Virus record (IMG/VR): IMGVR_UViG_3300009621_000018
Location: 1-20,737 of that record
Source of the DNA: a virus
Strand: one strand, 5' to 3'
DNA length: 20,737 nucleotides
Shown here: positions 1,478 to 20,737 of the stretch, one piece after another
Layout of the letters: each line of letters starts with the position of its first letter
Position numbering within the stretch: the first letter of the stretch is position 1
The notes under the pieces: generated by a model
Told to the model about the DNA's origin: nothing
Database searches by the model: none
What the model saw: the letters and a program-made list of their open reading frames with translations, nothing else
Program-made: the position numbers and the translations under genes

Positions 1478-4400
1478 ATGGGCGTTCCGAAGACCAGCAT
1501 CATTCCACGGCCAATGTCCCGGGCGGACTATGACGTTTTCATGTCGCCCTTGCCGCCGCTGAAGCCGACGGTCACTGATGGCGAAGCGCGCCGGCTGGAT
1601 TATCCCGTCGGGTACAACATCTCGTACATGCCGCGGAGCTACGAGGGAATCTCCTTCGAGCAGTTGCGCATGCTGGCTGACACGGACTATCTGACCCGGA
1701 CGTGCATCGAAACGCGCAAGGACCAGGTGTCGAAGCTGGTCGTTCACTTTGGGCTGAAGAAAGAGGACGTCGACGAGCCCGACTCGAAGGTAAAGAAGCG
1801 CAGCAAGAGTGACTCGCGCGTCGATGACGTTCGCAAGTTCTTCGACCGTCCTGACGGCGAACACGATTTCCACGAATGGATGAGGTTGTGGTTTGAGGAT
1901 CAACTCGTGGCCGATTGCGCCAGTTTACTTGTCGGACGTGACCCAAAGTCGCAGAAGGTGACGCGGTTCGTTCCTACTGACGGCGGCACCATCGGCATCC
2001 GCCTCGGGCCGGACGGCACTACACCCAAAGCGCCCTTCACCGCCTATCAACAAATCGTGAAGGGCCAGATCCTCTGCGATCTGAACACGAATCAGTTGGT
2101 CTACATGCCGCGCAATCTGCGCACGCATCGCGTCTACGGCATGAGCCCGGTCGAGCAGATCATCTTTATGATCAACCTAGGCTTGCGGCGCGACGTTTCG
2201 CGCTTGGCCGAGTACACCTCGGGCACCATTCCCGATGCGATCGCGCAGGTTCCTCCCGACTGGTCCCCGGACCAGATCGAACGGTTCCAGCGGGCGTTCG
2301 ACGCCGCCCTGGAAGGCAACCTGGCAGCCCGGCGCATGCTCCGGTTCATTCCGTCGCTGGGCGAAAAAGGGCCCGGGCAGATAACTTTCGCCAAGAAGGA
2401 CATGCTGCTCGACCAATTCGAGGAGTGGCGTGCGCGTATCGTGGCATTCTGCTTCTCGCTGCCGCCTACGGCATTCGTCAAGATGATGAACCGGGCTAGC
2501 GGCCAGCAGCAGCAGCGCCAAGCGCTGGAAGAAGGCTTCGAGCCGTCAAAGGTCTGGATCCTCGAGAAGCTGAATTACCTGATCCAGGCTCCGCAATATC
2601 TGAACTTCCCTGACATTGAGGCATCCTTCGATGACGATGTTGAAGTTGATCCGCTGGTGCAGGCGCAAGTCGACAAAATCTACATAAGCTGTGGGAAAAG
2701 TTCCGTAGACGAACTCCGGATCCGCGACGGCGAGGAGCCGTGGGGCATTGGGCCGTTCATCCTGACTCAAACCGGGCCGATCATGCTGGACGACGTCAAG
2801 AGCGGTGACGGGCGCGTGAAACCGGGTGCGCCGAAGCCCATGCTGCCGCCAGCGAACGGAGCAAACGGCGGTGCACCGGGAGCCAAGACACCCCCCGCAA
2901 AGCCGCCCCTGAGCGAATCCAGGGCCAAATCCGCGGAGGTTGCGAACAAGTTCGCGGAAGCGCTGGCCAAAGCCGAAAAAAAAAAGATTGTGGTAACGAC
3001 GGGGAAGCTGCCAGCGCGGGTTGAGAAGCGGATCGGCCGGCTGGCAGGGGTACTAGGACGCTTCCTGAAGAAGCAGGGCAAGGCTATTGCAGCGAAGGTG
3101 GCGGACCACTATGCGGAAGTCACCAAGACGGACGAGGACGAAATCGACCGCATCGTGCGCTCGATAGAGCTCGAATGGGACGCGATTGTTACTTCCTCGC
3201 AGTCGGCCATCGAGGAAACAGCCCAGGAAGTCGCACGCGATGTGCTGGTGGAAGTGGGTGTGACGGACAAGGCAGTGTTCGACCAGGTGAATCAGGCGGC
3301 AGTGGATTTTGCTCGGGACCGTGCCGCGGAGATGGTCGGCATGAAGTGGGACGGCGACACACTGATCGAGAATCCGAATCCGCGGTGGGCCATCACGGAC
3401 ACCACGCGGGACGCTCTGCGAGACACGGTGACACGGGCATTTGAGGACGGACTCGGACCCCAAGCGCTGGAAGATTCGATTGCGGACTCGTTTCAGTTTA
3501 GCGAAACGCGCGCGGAGATGATTGCACGGACGGAACTGGCAAAGGCGCAGATTCAGGGTGCGCTGCTGAGTGCAGCGAGTACTGGCATCGAGATGAAGAA
3601 GGCCAGCATCCTCGGGTCAATGCACGACGGAGACGACGAGTGTGACGATGCCGCAGACGACGGAGAGATTGATTTGGATGAGACATTTTCCACGGGAGAC
3701 GACGGGCCACCTTACCATCCGAACTGCTGTTTACCAGGAACGCTTGTAGCGGCCTGTGACCGAGTCACGAAGCAGTTTCGCCGCAGGTTTCATGGGGAAG
3801 TGGCTGTCATTCGCGTCGCCAGCGGCGAGGAGCTTTCCATAACCAAAAATCACCCAGTTCTGACGGACCAAGGATGGGTCAATGCGGGTTGCCTCAAGAA
3901 GGGCGTGTACCTGGCTTATGCCGGTGAGCAGGTTCGCATGCTTATGTCGGTTAGCCCAAATCATAACTTGATGCCAGCCCTTGCGGAGGATGTATTTAGT
4001 GCGGCTTTGAAAGCGGGCGGCCTGGCGACCTGTTCCATGCCAGTCACCGCCGAAGATTTCCACGGCGACGGAACCGCCGACACCGAAGTCGAGATTGTAC
4101 TTGCCGAGGGCACGCTGGAAAACAAAGGGCAGTTCCATCCGACTCAACATATCAGCGAAAACAGCCTCGGCTTCGCTCATGGGCGGGGGATGGCCTTCCC
4201 TAGTGTTCGCTCTTTTGTAGAGTTCTCTGAGCGAAGCCTTCCTCCCGCGAGCAGCATCGTTAGCGAAGGCAGCAATAAACTTTCTCTTGCCGGGAGACAT
4301 GAGTCTGTAGGCTGCTGTTTGGCAGATTCCGATCTCCCTGATGGGCAGACCGAGGTCGTGGAATCGATTGCGAATAGTGCTGCTGTGCGCTCCGACCATC

Positions 4401-4588
4401 CGACCGAGATCAACCGTAGACTTTCCGGCCACATAGAGTTTGTAGAAATAACGGATGTCGGCGTCGCTGAATTTGACGGGCATGTGTACAACCTCCAGAC
4501 TGACAGCTCATATTACCTTGCAAACGGCCTAATTGTACACAACTGCGTGTGCGATTTGGTGATCACTTACGCGGCAGAAGCTGAATGA
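1478..4588 (+). CDS. Portal protein fused to MuF-type minor head protein, interrupted by an intein
   Basis: The precursor is 1036 residues, or about 763 after removal of the intein. Residues 1 to about 440 resemble phage portal proteins, the dodecameric ring through which DNA enters the head (GMSPVEQIIFMINLGLRRD, then an SLPPTAFVKMMNRASGQQQQ segment typical of portals). A Pro/Ala/Gly linker follows at about 451-488, then a Lys run (codons 501-503), then a MuF/SPP1-gp7-type domain. That domain has the helical ETRAEMIARTELAKAQ motif at about 675-690 and the C-terminal HPNC...C motif of the family. The motif is split by the intein (Cys750-Asn1022); joining the exteins gives HPNCVCDLVITY. The C-extein is only 14 residues. 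There is no evident ribosome-binding site; the start follows the previous stop by one base, so coupling is likely. Fusion of portal and MuF is unusual, because the two are normally separate adjacent genes. Confidence 0.88.
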   Translation: MGVPKTSIIPRPMSRADYDVFMSPLPPLKPTVTDGEARRLDYPVGYNISYMPRSYEGISFEQLRMLADTDYLTRTCIETRKDQVSKLVVHFGLKKEDVDEPDSKVKKRSKSDSRVDDVRKFFDRPDGEHDFHEWMRLWFEDQLVADCASLLVGRDPKSQKVTRFVPTDGGTIGIRLGPDGTTPKAPFTAYQQIVKGQILCDLNTNQLVYMPRNLRTHRVYGMSPVEQIIFMINLGLRRDVSRLAEYTSGTIPDAIAQVPPDWSPDQIERFQRAFDAALEGNLAARRMLRFIPSLGEKGPGQITFAKKDMLLDQFEEWRARIVAFCFSLPPTAFVKMMNRASGQQQQRQALEEGFEPSKVWILEKLNYLIQAPQYLNFPDIEASFDDDVEVDPLVQAQVDKIYISCGKSSVDELRIRDGEEPWGIGPFILTQTGPIMLDDVKSGDGRVKPGAPKPMLPPANGANGGAPGAKTPPAKPPLSESRAKSAEVANKFAEALAKAEKKKIVVTTGKLPARVEKRIGRLAGVLGRFLKKQGKAIAAKVADHYAEVTKTDEDEIDRIVRSIELEWDAIVTSSQSAIEETAQEVARDVLVEVGVTDKAVFDQVNQAAVDFARDRAAEMVGMKWDGDTLIENPNPRWAITDTTRDALRDTVTRAFEDGLGPQALEDSIADSFQFSETRAEMIARTELAKAQIQGALLSAASTGIEMKKASILGSMHDGDDECDDAADDGEIDLDETFSTGDDGPPYHPNCCLPGTLVAACDRVTKQFRRRFHGEVAVIRVASGEELSITKNHPVLTDQGWVNAGCLKKGVYLAYAGEQVRMLMSVSPNHNLMPALAEDVFSAALKAGGLATCSMPVTAEDFHGDGTADTEVEIVLAEGTLENKGQFHPTQHISENSLGFAHGRGMAFPSVRSFVEFSERSLPPASSIVSEGSNKLSLAGRHESVGCCLADSDLPDGQTEVVESIANSAAVRSDHPTEINRRLSGHIEFVEITDVGVAEFDGHVYNLQTDSSYYLANGLIVHNCVCDLVITYAAEAE
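3731..4483 (-). CDS. HTH plus Vsr/EDxHD-like homing endonuclease, antisense within the intein
   Basis: The protein is 250 residues, on the strand opposite the intein and codon-aligned with it. Residues 13-46 form a helix-turn-helix (KLYVAGKSTVDLGRMVGAHS, then STIRNRFHDLGLP), as in DNA-binding domains attached to homing nucleases. Residues 102-180 match the Vsr-like PD-(D/E)XK fold: SEAEAVF (E104/E106), KYNLDFGVG (D132), VAVEIFGGDWHG (E142, W148, H149) and LRKGWHQVMIW. That order fits the EDxHD family known from phage introns and split inteins. A near-perfect ribosome-binding site (GGAGGT, then 7 nt, then ATG) precedes the start. The stop is the complement of the intein's TTA codon at 3731. 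A weak -10-like TACAAT lies on the minus strand at 4532-4537, but I see no convincing -35. The inferred role is to cut intein-free alleles and drive homing of the intein; activity is unproven. Confidence 0.82.
   Translation of the reverse strand: MPVKFSDADIRYFYKLYVAGKSTVDLGRMVGAHSSTIRNRFHDLGLPIREIGICQTAAYRLMSPGKRKFIAAFANDAARGRKASLRELYKRANTREGHPPPMSEAEAVFADMLSRMELPFVFQRALGKYNLDFGVGGSVAVEIFGGDWHGTGRQAARFQSRTKYILRKGWHQVMIWANRHKHANLLTGISQVHALLEATRIDPSLVRQNWVIFGYGKLLAAGDANDSHFPMKPAAKLLRDSVTGRYKRSW
4491..4496 (-). promoter_or_regulatory. Ribosome-binding site of the antisense homing endonuclease
   Basis: On the minus strand this reads GGAGGT, 7 nt before the ATG at 4483-4481. On the + strand the same bases encode Asn-Leu within intein block F (VYNLQT), so one six-base stretch serves both the splicing domain and the translation of the nuclease. 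This is the main non-homology evidence that the antisense frame is a real gene. Confidence 0.75.
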
Positions 4589-18770: not shown

Positions 18771-19040
18771 ATGAAGACGCTTGGAACGATGACGCAGGCT
18801 GGTCAGAGCGTGACCGTGACCGCATCCCAGCGGGATGACGGATCAATTCTGCTTGTAGCGAGCTGCGGCCAAACGACGCGCGAGCACGTCTTCAATCCCG
18901 CACCGAGTCTGGACTATACCGAGGACCAGTTTTTGAGCGACATTGACGCCGCGAAGCAAGCTATTTCCGATGAGGCCGCAGCCTACGAGAGCCAGCGGCT
19001 TATGCAGGAAAAATTCTTTTCGGACCAAACAACGCCGTGA
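18771..19040 (+). CDS. Small hypothetical protein after the tip gene
   Basis: This 89-residue protein starts at ATG 18771, 7 bp after the tip gene stop, with GAGGCGG before it. The N-terminal half is beta-rich (KTLGTMTQAGQSVTVTASQR, GSILLVASCGQTTREHVF) and the C-terminal half helical and acidic (DQFLSDIDAAKQAISDEAAA). Small beta-then-helix proteins after the tip gene are often tail accessory proteins, but I do not recognise this family. It overlaps the next gene's GTG start by 4 nt (GTGA at 19037). Confidence 0.65.
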   Translation: MKTLGTMTQAGQSVTVTASQRDDGSILLVASCGQTTREHVFNPAPSLDYTEDQFLSDIDAAKQAISDEAAAYESQRLMQEKFFSDQTTP

Positions 19041-19402
19041 AGAAACCCCACTACATCGTCGCAGTCATTCTGTTTTGTCTGATACCCTTTATTTTCCTTT
19101 ACGCGCAACAGGTCAAAATAAACTCAGAGCAAACACAGTTCGCGCTCGATAGCCAACGGCTCAGGGCGATTGAGGAGAGACTGGACAAACTGGAAATCCG
19201 GCACGAGCTTCATTTCGACAAAGAGCAAGGGCAATACGATCTCATCACGAATCGTTTGACGGCGCTGGAACTAACGGTGGCTCATCACGAGCAGCTTCTG
19301 TGGGTCTTCATCGGCATGGTGCTGCTGATCATCACCGAGAAAATTTTAAGCATGGCGTTTCGCAAGAGCAATGCAGTAGAAAAACTCATTGGACGCAATT
19401 AG
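19037..19402 (+). CDS. Two-TM coiled-coil membrane protein, probable lysis accessory
   Basis: This 121-residue protein starts at GTG 19037. There is a hydrophobic helix at residues 6-24 (YIVAVILFCLIPFIFLYAQ), a charged coiled coil at about 25-86 (RLRAIEERLDKLEIRHELHF), and a second transmembrane helix at about 87-103 (LLWVFIGMVLLIITEK) with a basic tail. It sits directly before the endolysin gene, overlapping it by 14 nt. The arrangement suggests a holin-like or spanin-like protein of the lysis cassette, but two transmembrane segments with a coiled coil between them are not a textbook i-spanin. The role is inferred from position and topology. Confidence 0.6.
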   Translation: MKKPHYIVAVILFCLIPFIFLYAQQVKINSEQTQFALDSQRLRAIEERLDKLEIRHELHFDKEQGQYDLITNRLTALELTVAHHEQLLWVFIGMVLLIITEKILSMAFRKSNAVEKLIGRN

Positions 19403-19889
19403 CCTCACGCGGTTGCAGACCGTTCACCCGGAACTGCAGCGCCGCATCCTGCAACTCGATCAGCTTCTCACCGCGTCTTCGCCCGCAATCCATCTCCGCG
19501 TCACGCAGGCATTGCGTACATGGCCGGAACAAGCGGCACTCTATGCCCAAGGCCGCACGGCGCCGGGACCGATCATCACGAACGCGAAGCCCGGAACTTC
19601 CATGCACAACTACGGACTCGCCGTGGATTGCTGCCCGGACCTGCCCGGCCTTCCGACGTGGCAGCCGGATTGGTCCACGACGGACGAACGGTGGAAGCAA
19701 TTTCTTGTGCAAGCGCTGACCTTCGGACTTGCCGAGGGCGCGACTTGGCGGACATTTGCCGATGCCCCGCACCTTTACCTGCAGGAATTGCCCGCAGACC
19801 CCGACGACAACCTGTTGCAGCTTTTGACGGACGGCGGCATTCAAGCCGTCTGGGATTGGGTCAATCAGACGTATGGATTCTCATCTTAA
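19389..19889 (+). CDS. Peptidase M15 (VanY/CwlK-like) endolysin
   Basis: This 166-residue protein starts at a TTG overlapping the preceding gene; no better start keeps the N-terminal helix. The M15 signature is complete: EQAALYAQGR (47-56), then SMHNYGLAVD with Zn ligands His73 and Asp80, then DAPHLYLQ with Asp125 and Zn ligand His128. These are metallopeptidases that cut the peptide stems of peptidoglycan (L-Ala-D-Glu or D-Ala-D-Ala type). There is no signal peptide, so it needs a holin for release, consistent with the membrane protein genes on both sides. The N-terminal segment (RLQTVHPELQRRILQLDQLL) is typical of this phage endolysin group. Confidence 0.88.
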   Translation: MDAISLTRLQTVHPELQRRILQLDQLLTASSPAIHLRVTQALRTWPEQAALYAQGRTAPGPIITNAKPGTSMHNYGLAVDCCPDLPGLPTWQPDWSTTDERWKQFLVQALTFGLAEGATWRTFADAPHLYLQELPADPDDNLLQLLTDGGIQAVWDWVNQTYGFSS

Positions 19890-19906
19890 CTAAGGAGGAA
19901 GTGGCA

Positions 19907-20623
19907 ATGACCGTTTTCATGCATTTGCTTTATCAGTTCCTGCTCCTCATTGGTCAGGCAGTCAACCTGTTCGGTGGGATCGTTCCCGCGAAATATCAGC
20001 CCCTGGTGGCGTTCGTTCTTGGCTTTTCCCAGTTGGGCCTTGCGCTTTACAACCACTATTACAATCCCGACGGCACGTCGGCCAAGGTGGCCTACATCGC
20101 CAAAGTGGTCATCCTTTGCCTGCTCATTTCCGGCGTAGCAATGGCGCAGACTACCCCACCGGCACAGATCGTCTCTCAACCGTGGTCTTTGAACACGAAT
20201 GTTCTGTCGCTGCCTGGCAACCATCAAACCATCGCGGCCAGTGACAGCGGCTTGGCGTTCACGCCGACGCCGAGCCTCGATCTTTACGATCGCAATCTGA
20301 TCAGCACGGACGGGGTGCTGAAGGTCTTCTCTGGCGGGGTGAATTATCGGCTGGCGTGGTTAAACAAGAAGATCGACAACATCAGTCCTAACGTGAATTT
20401 CCTGCGTGTTCAACTTTTTGTCACTGCTGGCGCCGGCATTGATCAGGTAAGCCTTGCAGGAGTCACCAAAAACCACTACGCCTTCACGGCCGGTGGCGGC
20501 GCAAACTACATGCTTAATACGAGCGGTTCGTGGACGCTTGGCGGCAGCGTCGAGTGGGCCAAGTTTCCTGGCTATCAAAACAACGGCTTGATCGTTAAGT
20601 TCGGGCCGACGTTTCACTTCTAG
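19907..20623 (+). CDS. Holin-like N-terminus fused to outer-membrane beta-barrel-like domain
   Basis: This 238-residue protein starts at ATG 19907 with a perfect AAGGAGG (19892-19898); the frame is open further upstream but overlaps the endolysin there. Residues 1-50 have two hydrophobic helices around a conserved-looking GGIVPAKYQPLV, like a small holin. Residues 61-80 (VAYIAKVVILCLLISGVAMA) look like a signal peptide with cleavage at AMA/Q. The rest is beta-rich with alternating pattern (VLKVFSGGVNYRLAWLNKK, LRVQLFVTAGAGIDQVSL, SWTLGGSVEWAKF) and ends in HF, the C-terminal Phe used by the barrel assembly machinery. Either it is a true fusion, or a second start (GTG 20087) yields a separate outer-membrane protein. 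Only one strong ribosome-binding site is visible. Confidence 0.65.
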   Translation: MTVFMHLLYQFLLLIGQAVNLFGGIVPAKYQPLVAFVLGFSQLGLALYNHYYNPDGTSAKVAYIAKVVILCLLISGVAMAQTTPPAQIVSQPWSLNTNVLSLPGNHQTIAASDSGLAFTPTPSLDLYDRNLISTDGVLKVFSGGVNYRLAWLNKKIDNISPNVNFLRVQLFVTAGAGIDQVSLAGVTKNHYAFTAGGGANYMLNTSGSWTLGGSVEWAKFPGYQNNGLIVKFGPTFHF

Positions 20624-20624
20624 C

Positions 20625-20737
20625 ATGGGCGGACTCGTCAGCGGCGCGATCAGCGGCATTGGCGGGCTGATCCTGTCCAAGATCGAGCATGGAGAGATTC
20701 AGAACTGGGTGCGCCTGCTTCTCTCCGTGTTCTTTTC
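20625..20737 (+). CDS. Small Gly-rich membrane-associated protein, 3' end outside window
   Basis: An ATG one base after the previous stop (TAG 20621-20623) opens a frame that runs off the right edge. The visible 37 codons read MGGLVSGAISGIGGLILSKI, then a charged HGEIQNWVR and a hydrophobic LLLSVFF. The pattern suggests a small membrane protein, perhaps another lysis or holin-type component. Only the N-terminus is seen, so no assignment is made. Confidence 0.5.
   Translation, partial: MGGLVSGAISGIGGLILSKIEHGEIQNWVRLLLSVFF

Follow-up and report, generated by a model that had tools for sequence, protein, structure and literature searches.

Directly downstream of a putative endolysin gene, the analysed stretch of an IMG/VR virus record (20,737 bases, here called the window) carries a 238-codon open reading frame (ORF) whose predicted product joins a holin-like two-helix hairpin, an internal signal-peptide-like segment and a beta-rich C-terminal half. 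By sequence comparison this fusion is real and old, occurring in a group of soil phages. Its product, made with the lysis genes, is probably a precursor from which signal peptidase releases an outer-membrane barrel, leaving the hairpin in the inner membrane.

The fusion ORF is a single open frame (Table 1), and its AAGGAGG Shine-Dalgarno (SD) sequence has an anti-SD duplex energy of -12.0. A hydropathy scan of the first 110 residues gave peaks at residues 11–27, 32–48 and 64–80, and the third segment ends in V-A-M-A/Q-T, in which an AxA cleavage motif can be read by eye. The C half (residues 81–238) contains 17 glycines and no cysteine, and its terminal KFGPTFHF fits the beta-signal pattern of the beta-barrel assembly machinery (BAM), polar-x-G-x-x-hydrophobic-x-hydrophobic. 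The layout described in an earlier, sequence-only reading (a strong ribosome-binding site, two hydrophobic helices, a signal-like segment ending in AMA and a beta-rich part ending in Phe) is thus contained in one ORF.

A viral search space of 2.9 million contigs yielded the fusion ORF in seven further IMG/VR contigs, five at 100% identity, one at 92% and one a truncated copy at 95%, and in a distant lineage, L025, at 38% identity over the full length. As contigs with identical copies could all come from one virus, independent support for the fusion amounts to two lineages, the window type and L025; the L007 copy, 93% identical to the window, is a near variant. The frame is open across the hairpin/signal junction in every fusion copy. 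Between the window and L007 the nonsynonymous (dN) and synonymous (dS) divergences are 0.043 and 0.76 (ratio ~0.06), and by segment dN/dS is 0.030/0.43 for residues 1–60, 0/0.39 for 61–80 and 0.054/1.03 for 81–238, so the codons are under purifying selection. AMAQT is identical in the window, L007, L008 and L025, whereas the hydrophobic (h-) region of the putative signal varies. The proposed fusion of holin-like hairpin, signal peptide and barrel-like domain, sited in a lysis cassette, is therefore supported and is kept to the distance of L025, and we take the ORF to encode one translated product.

The sequence-only reading had offered, as its other choice, two genes sharing this frame, the second beginning at GTG 20087. 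That codon and a further GTG at 20105 are both present in the window, and a start at 20087 would yield a good signal peptide, MAYIAK..., but GTG 20087 is AGC in L025, and GTG 20105 is GTA in L007 and ATG in L025. Duplex energies at the two internal GTGs are -2.1 and -5.4, against -12.0 at ATG 19907, and that at the ATG of L025 is 0.1. Both candidate starts lack conservation and a persuasive SD sequence, which makes this arrangement very improbable, and a second gene from GTG 20087 in particular finds neither a conserved codon nor a strong SD.

The N half belongs to a hairpin family of six lineages, all with Y[FY]NP[DN]GT placed after the second hydrophobic segment. Two of these are fused (the window type and L025) and the other four are stand-alone proteins of 64–71 amino acids (L013; the near-identical L026 and L027; L028; and MW202444, a named phage recovered with L013, L025 and L028 as queries), which stop at or just past the point where the signal peptide of the fusion would start. 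Each of the seven sequences scanned shows two hydropathy peaks in its N half, as for the two transmembrane (TM) segments of a class II holin, and a low-confidence AlphaFold model (predicted local distance difference test score, pLDDT, 38.9) has helices at residues 2–21 and 28–51. The hairpin gene is directly 3' of a peptidoglycan hydrolase gene in five of the six lineages: M15 in the window, L025 and MW202444, GH24 lysozyme in L026 (the assignment was made by scanning L026; L027 has a near-identical ORF), and Hydrolase_2 in L028. In the remaining lineage, L013, it is directly 5' of a DUF5675 gene and has a coil-TM gene on its own 5' side. Because a hydrolase or DUF5675 gene adjoins it in six of six lineages, the hairpin is, as far as sequence and gene order can tell, a lysis-cassette protein of holin-like shape, with a putative holin role, from an unannotated family without a Pfam or PHROG match. 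An N-in/C-in topology is suggested by the N-terminal Lys of most members and by the need of the next segment of the fusion for an inside start; the loop charges of the L028 hairpin are ambiguous.

Named phages gave no match to the fusion protein (P0001) itself, and one scan of bacterial genomes gave no relatives. When the best 80 of 103 confirmed endolysin-anchored loci were scanned with N-half and C-half hidden Markov models (HMMs), matches were confined to eight contigs already known, apart from one C-half match on the minus strand of L109 (E 0.57) that we take as chance. Several other candidates were set aside: a replication protein that was a weak phage match for L025 (H2, E 0.7), a small two-helix protein in L074 (probability of a match to the hairpin 1.3%), and seven Clostridia loci from another bacterial scan, where a short HYFNPDGT stretch lies inside exported proteins of more than 600 amino acids (HMM scores of 14.8–17.2 bits, against at least 100 for true members).

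For the C half, two viral scans returned only fused contigs, and no sequence match was found in PDB, plasmids or family libraries; it was also absent from all five stand-alone-hairpin records searched, some of which are fragments. Of the stand-alone relatives by which the sequence-only reading proposed to judge the fusion, those of the N half therefore exist (four lineages) and those of the C half were not found. The refuting case named in that reading, homologues with a stop codon between the halves, is seen only in part: stand-alone N halves do end there, and no separate C half follows or was found. AlphaFold, given four C-half sequences (one truncated), modelled this part as seven strands plus a helix, with low confidence (pLDDT 48.1). 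Among the Foldseek rows for this model, none of which reached E <= 0.001, the top viral ones include several named outer-membrane barrels, and the two top PDB rows are coproporphyrinogen oxidases. Among the 50 matches listed by a second structure comparison, the best were NspA (Z 10.1), OprF (10.0) and PagL (9.9); the first five (Z 10.1 to 9.2) comprise barrels of the outer membrane and designed membrane barrels, the sixth is avidin (Z 9.1), and OmpW and CarO are two further membrane barrels. Because the best rows are all barrels, membrane barrels first and avidin-type barrels making up the rest, the modelled C half is probably an 8-stranded barrel. A membrane location is probable from the putative signal peptide, the beta-signal-like end and the higher rank of the membrane barrels, and the earlier suggestion of a membrane barrel stands to the extent that a weak model resembles outer-membrane barrels most.

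In the precursor reading that we favour, the hairpin (residues 1–60) would insert into the inner membrane, its two ends facing the cytoplasm, and work as a small holin or as the partner of one, and the third hydrophobic segment would serve as a signal peptide carrying the C half through Sec. Signal peptidase I would cleave after AMA (residue 80), and BAM would insert the released 158-residue protein into the outer membrane. A single message would then supply a lysis protein of the inner membrane and an outer-membrane protein (OMP) in equal amounts. The barrel would have its effect at the outer membrane, either as lysis occurs or shortly before it; a role at that time is likely from the presumed co-expression with the endolysin. 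In favour of a cut precursor are the persistence of the fusion in L025, the low dN/dS of all three segments, the invariant AMAQT, stand-alone hairpins that end before the signal peptide, the hydrolase-adjacent hairpins, the barrel-like structure matches and a next gene shared with L026/L027. The last is a hydrophobic gene that begins one base past the fusion ORF stop, and its L007 copy is 28% identical to the gene 3' of the stand-alone hairpin in L026/L027.

Several observations weigh against this reading. Both AlphaFold models are of low confidence; Foldseek gave nothing at E <= 0.001 in PDB or BFVD; soluble avidin-type barrels make up 43 of the 50 structure rows, from Z 9.1 down; and strand alternation compared with shuffles was weak (P 0.079, 0.018 and 0.107 by segment count) and is not used as proof. 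No Pfam, PHROG or NCBIfam family fits the fusion protein, its only Pfam match being PF15794 at E 0.37 with none to the Ail/Lom family, and an outer membrane in the host is assumed. Apart from these points, a literature search over titles and abstract openings turned up no holin-OMP fusion and no phage precursor with an internal signal peptide, which is no proof of absence, and the phage OMP literature at the same depth likewise showed no such case.

If the product were left uncut, it would sit in the inner membrane by three helices and expose a beta domain to the periplasm, as either a holin variant or a true bridge between the two membranes. The third helix is hydrophobic enough for a TM segment (2.48), and the ~19 residues between the start of the C half (residue 81) and its first modelled strand would draw the two membranes close, but this linker is too short to reach across an intact periplasm and AMA/QT is invariant, so we consider an uncut protein improbable. 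Two other proposals overlap with the cut precursor, as both concern the job of the barrel once freed. It might alter the cell surface, in kind like lambda Lom, by blocking receptors or by keeping phages from adsorbing again to debris and dying cells, the lysis gene being used only for late expression. A small barrel encoded near tail genes (these lie upstream of the lysis cassette in the window) and a best structural likeness to small outer-membrane barrels agree with this, as does the apparent dispensability of the barrel, given that stand-alone hairpins do without it and that the C half was not found in the five records searched. The C half has no Pfam Ail/Lom sequence match, however, and one would not expect a surface gene to be fused to a hairpin of lysis type; we regard a surface role as possible though doubtful, and at least as good an account of the barrel as the spanin pair considered next.

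A survey of 677 phage genomes (PMC6139136) describes unimolecular (u-) spanins as having an N-terminal lipobox and a C-terminal TM domain, found no spanin in 91 of the genomes, and suggests that the spanin's work could be done by a type I protein of the inner membrane or by an OMP, the latter as outer (o-) spanin. The C half has no lipobox Cys of the o-spanin kind; the sole Cys in the neighbourhood, at position 71, follows V-I-L and is replaced by Phe in L025. Nor is the u-spanin plan present, as the C end is KFGPTFHF and the hydropathy peaks of the first 110 residues, the part scanned, lie within residues 11–80. Having no lipobox, the fusion protein is not a spanin by definition. The window does encode, side by side, a type I-like coil protein (19037–19402; its layout is repeated in L007 3123–3482 and L025 3130–3498) and the probable OMP, and one version of the cut-precursor reading would make the barrel the outer partner of the coil protein, the two joining or disrupting the membranes after the endolysin cuts the wall. 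No candidate emerged from a crude lipobox scan of the window, G001 (44,305 bases) and G007 (30,726 bases). The records may be incomplete, however, and the coil is short, and in G003, the contig of L025, there are five lipobox start positions, one with an SD sequence inside the lysis cassette. A strict-lipobox lipoprotein (MKFTFPLLIVLFLAGC...) is encoded at L025 2749–3123 within that cassette as a possible o-spanin, so that the L025 lineage may own an ordinary one. We judge the pair unlikely. Equally speculative is a new kind of spanin system in which the coil protein is the inner partner, and an outer-membrane barrel replaces the lipoprotein as the outer one and is cleaved off a holin-like hairpin, so that hole-forming and outer parts are made one to one; it would, if true, explain the breaching of the outer membrane by some phages that lack spanins. 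We note that the position of the L025 lipoprotein is taken in the window and L007 by an unrelated-looking protein of 89–94 amino acids, and that L029 (MW202444.1) 1223–1666, near the stand-alone hairpin, encodes a signal segment with LMSC, a charged coil and a C-terminal TM segment, a u-spanin-like layout.

Table 1. Features of the fusion ORF and its neighbours in the window (aa, amino acids)
Feature	Coordinates	Strand	Basis or remark
121-aa protein with a signal or TM segment at the N-terminus, a charged, coil-like middle and a TM segment at the C-terminus; candidate partner of type I	19037..19402	+	sequence
M15 peptidase, putative endolysin	19389..19889	+	directly 5' of fusion ORF; Pfam M15_4 1.1e-7, VanY 3e-7; phrog_15351 7.4e-23
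Shine-Dalgarno AAGGAGG	19892..19898	+	8 nt 5' of ATG 19907
Fusion ORF, 238 aa	19907..20623	+	ATG 19907 to TAG 20623, single open frame
N half, residues 1-60, putative two-helix hairpin, HY[FY]NPDGT family	19907..20086	+	stand-alone relatives L013, L026, L027, L028, MW202444; hydropathy
Internal signal-peptide-like segment, residues 61-80, end AMA/QT	20087..20146	+	hydropathy peak 2.48; conserved AMAQT
C half as predicted after cleavage (158 aa), probably an 8-stranded barrel of the outer membrane	20147..20620	+	model and structure comparison, low confidence
KFGPTFHF, beta-signal-like C-terminus	20597..20620	+	sequence
114-aa hydrophobic protein (start only, cut by window end), second holin-like candidate	20625..20737	+	full copy L005 4719-5060

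Among the endolysin-anchored loci, L090 has, following an M15 endolysin, two small 2-TM genes and then a separate 168-residue signal-plus-beta-rich protein (3584–4561), an unfused, halves-like arrangement; the last was rejected as a C-half relative, there being no detectable relation. L076 (3477–4121) encodes, directly 3' of an M15 endolysin, a 214-residue protein with an N-terminal TM segment, a charged stretch and a beta-rich-looking end in Phe, which from its sequence looks like another candidate for an inner-to-outer-membrane lysis protein. A crude signal-plus-beta screen of these loci gave ten uninformative rows and missed the L090 protein. Elsewhere in the window, a portal fused to a Mu F-like domain (1478–4588, + strand) carries an intein (PF14890) at residues 761–1022, and a 250-residue ORF antisense to the portal-intein region (3731–4483, - strand) has a weak, below-cutoff match to the endonuclease family REase_MTES_1575 (E 1.4e-4) and is perhaps a homing endonuclease.

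These results define a hairpin family that lacks annotation, together with a phage protein that may be a precursor cut at an internal signal peptide. The idea of an OMP as o-spanin becomes directly testable with a conserved gene of the lysis cassette that brings along a probable barrel of the outer membrane. The cytochrome b/c1 protein FbcH is a polyprotein precursor that is cut at an internal signal peptide, and precursors of its type resemble the fusion protein in that an internal cleavable signal links a part in the inner membrane to an exported part behind it; the proteins are unrelated, and in the fusion ORF cleavage is predicted and the context is that of phage lysis. With class II (two-TM) holins, such as the S21 type or LysF1a of phage Girr, which is described in PMC13056207 as having two TM domains in an N-in-C-in topology, the hairpin shares small size, two helices and a place beside the endolysin; it differs in having no Pfam or PHROG match, in its fusion to a signal peptide and barrel, and in that its lytic activity is putative. 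The C half is like the 8-stranded barrels of the Ail/Lom/OmpX and NspA types in likely strand number, size, beta-signal-like end and top matches (NspA, OprF and PagL), but has no detectable sequence relation to them, and its signal peptide is internal. Finally, although its order is reversed and it has no lipobox, the fusion ORF resembles the gene of the T1 gp11 unimolecular spanin in that one gene would reach from inner to outer membrane with a beta-rich periplasmic or outer part.
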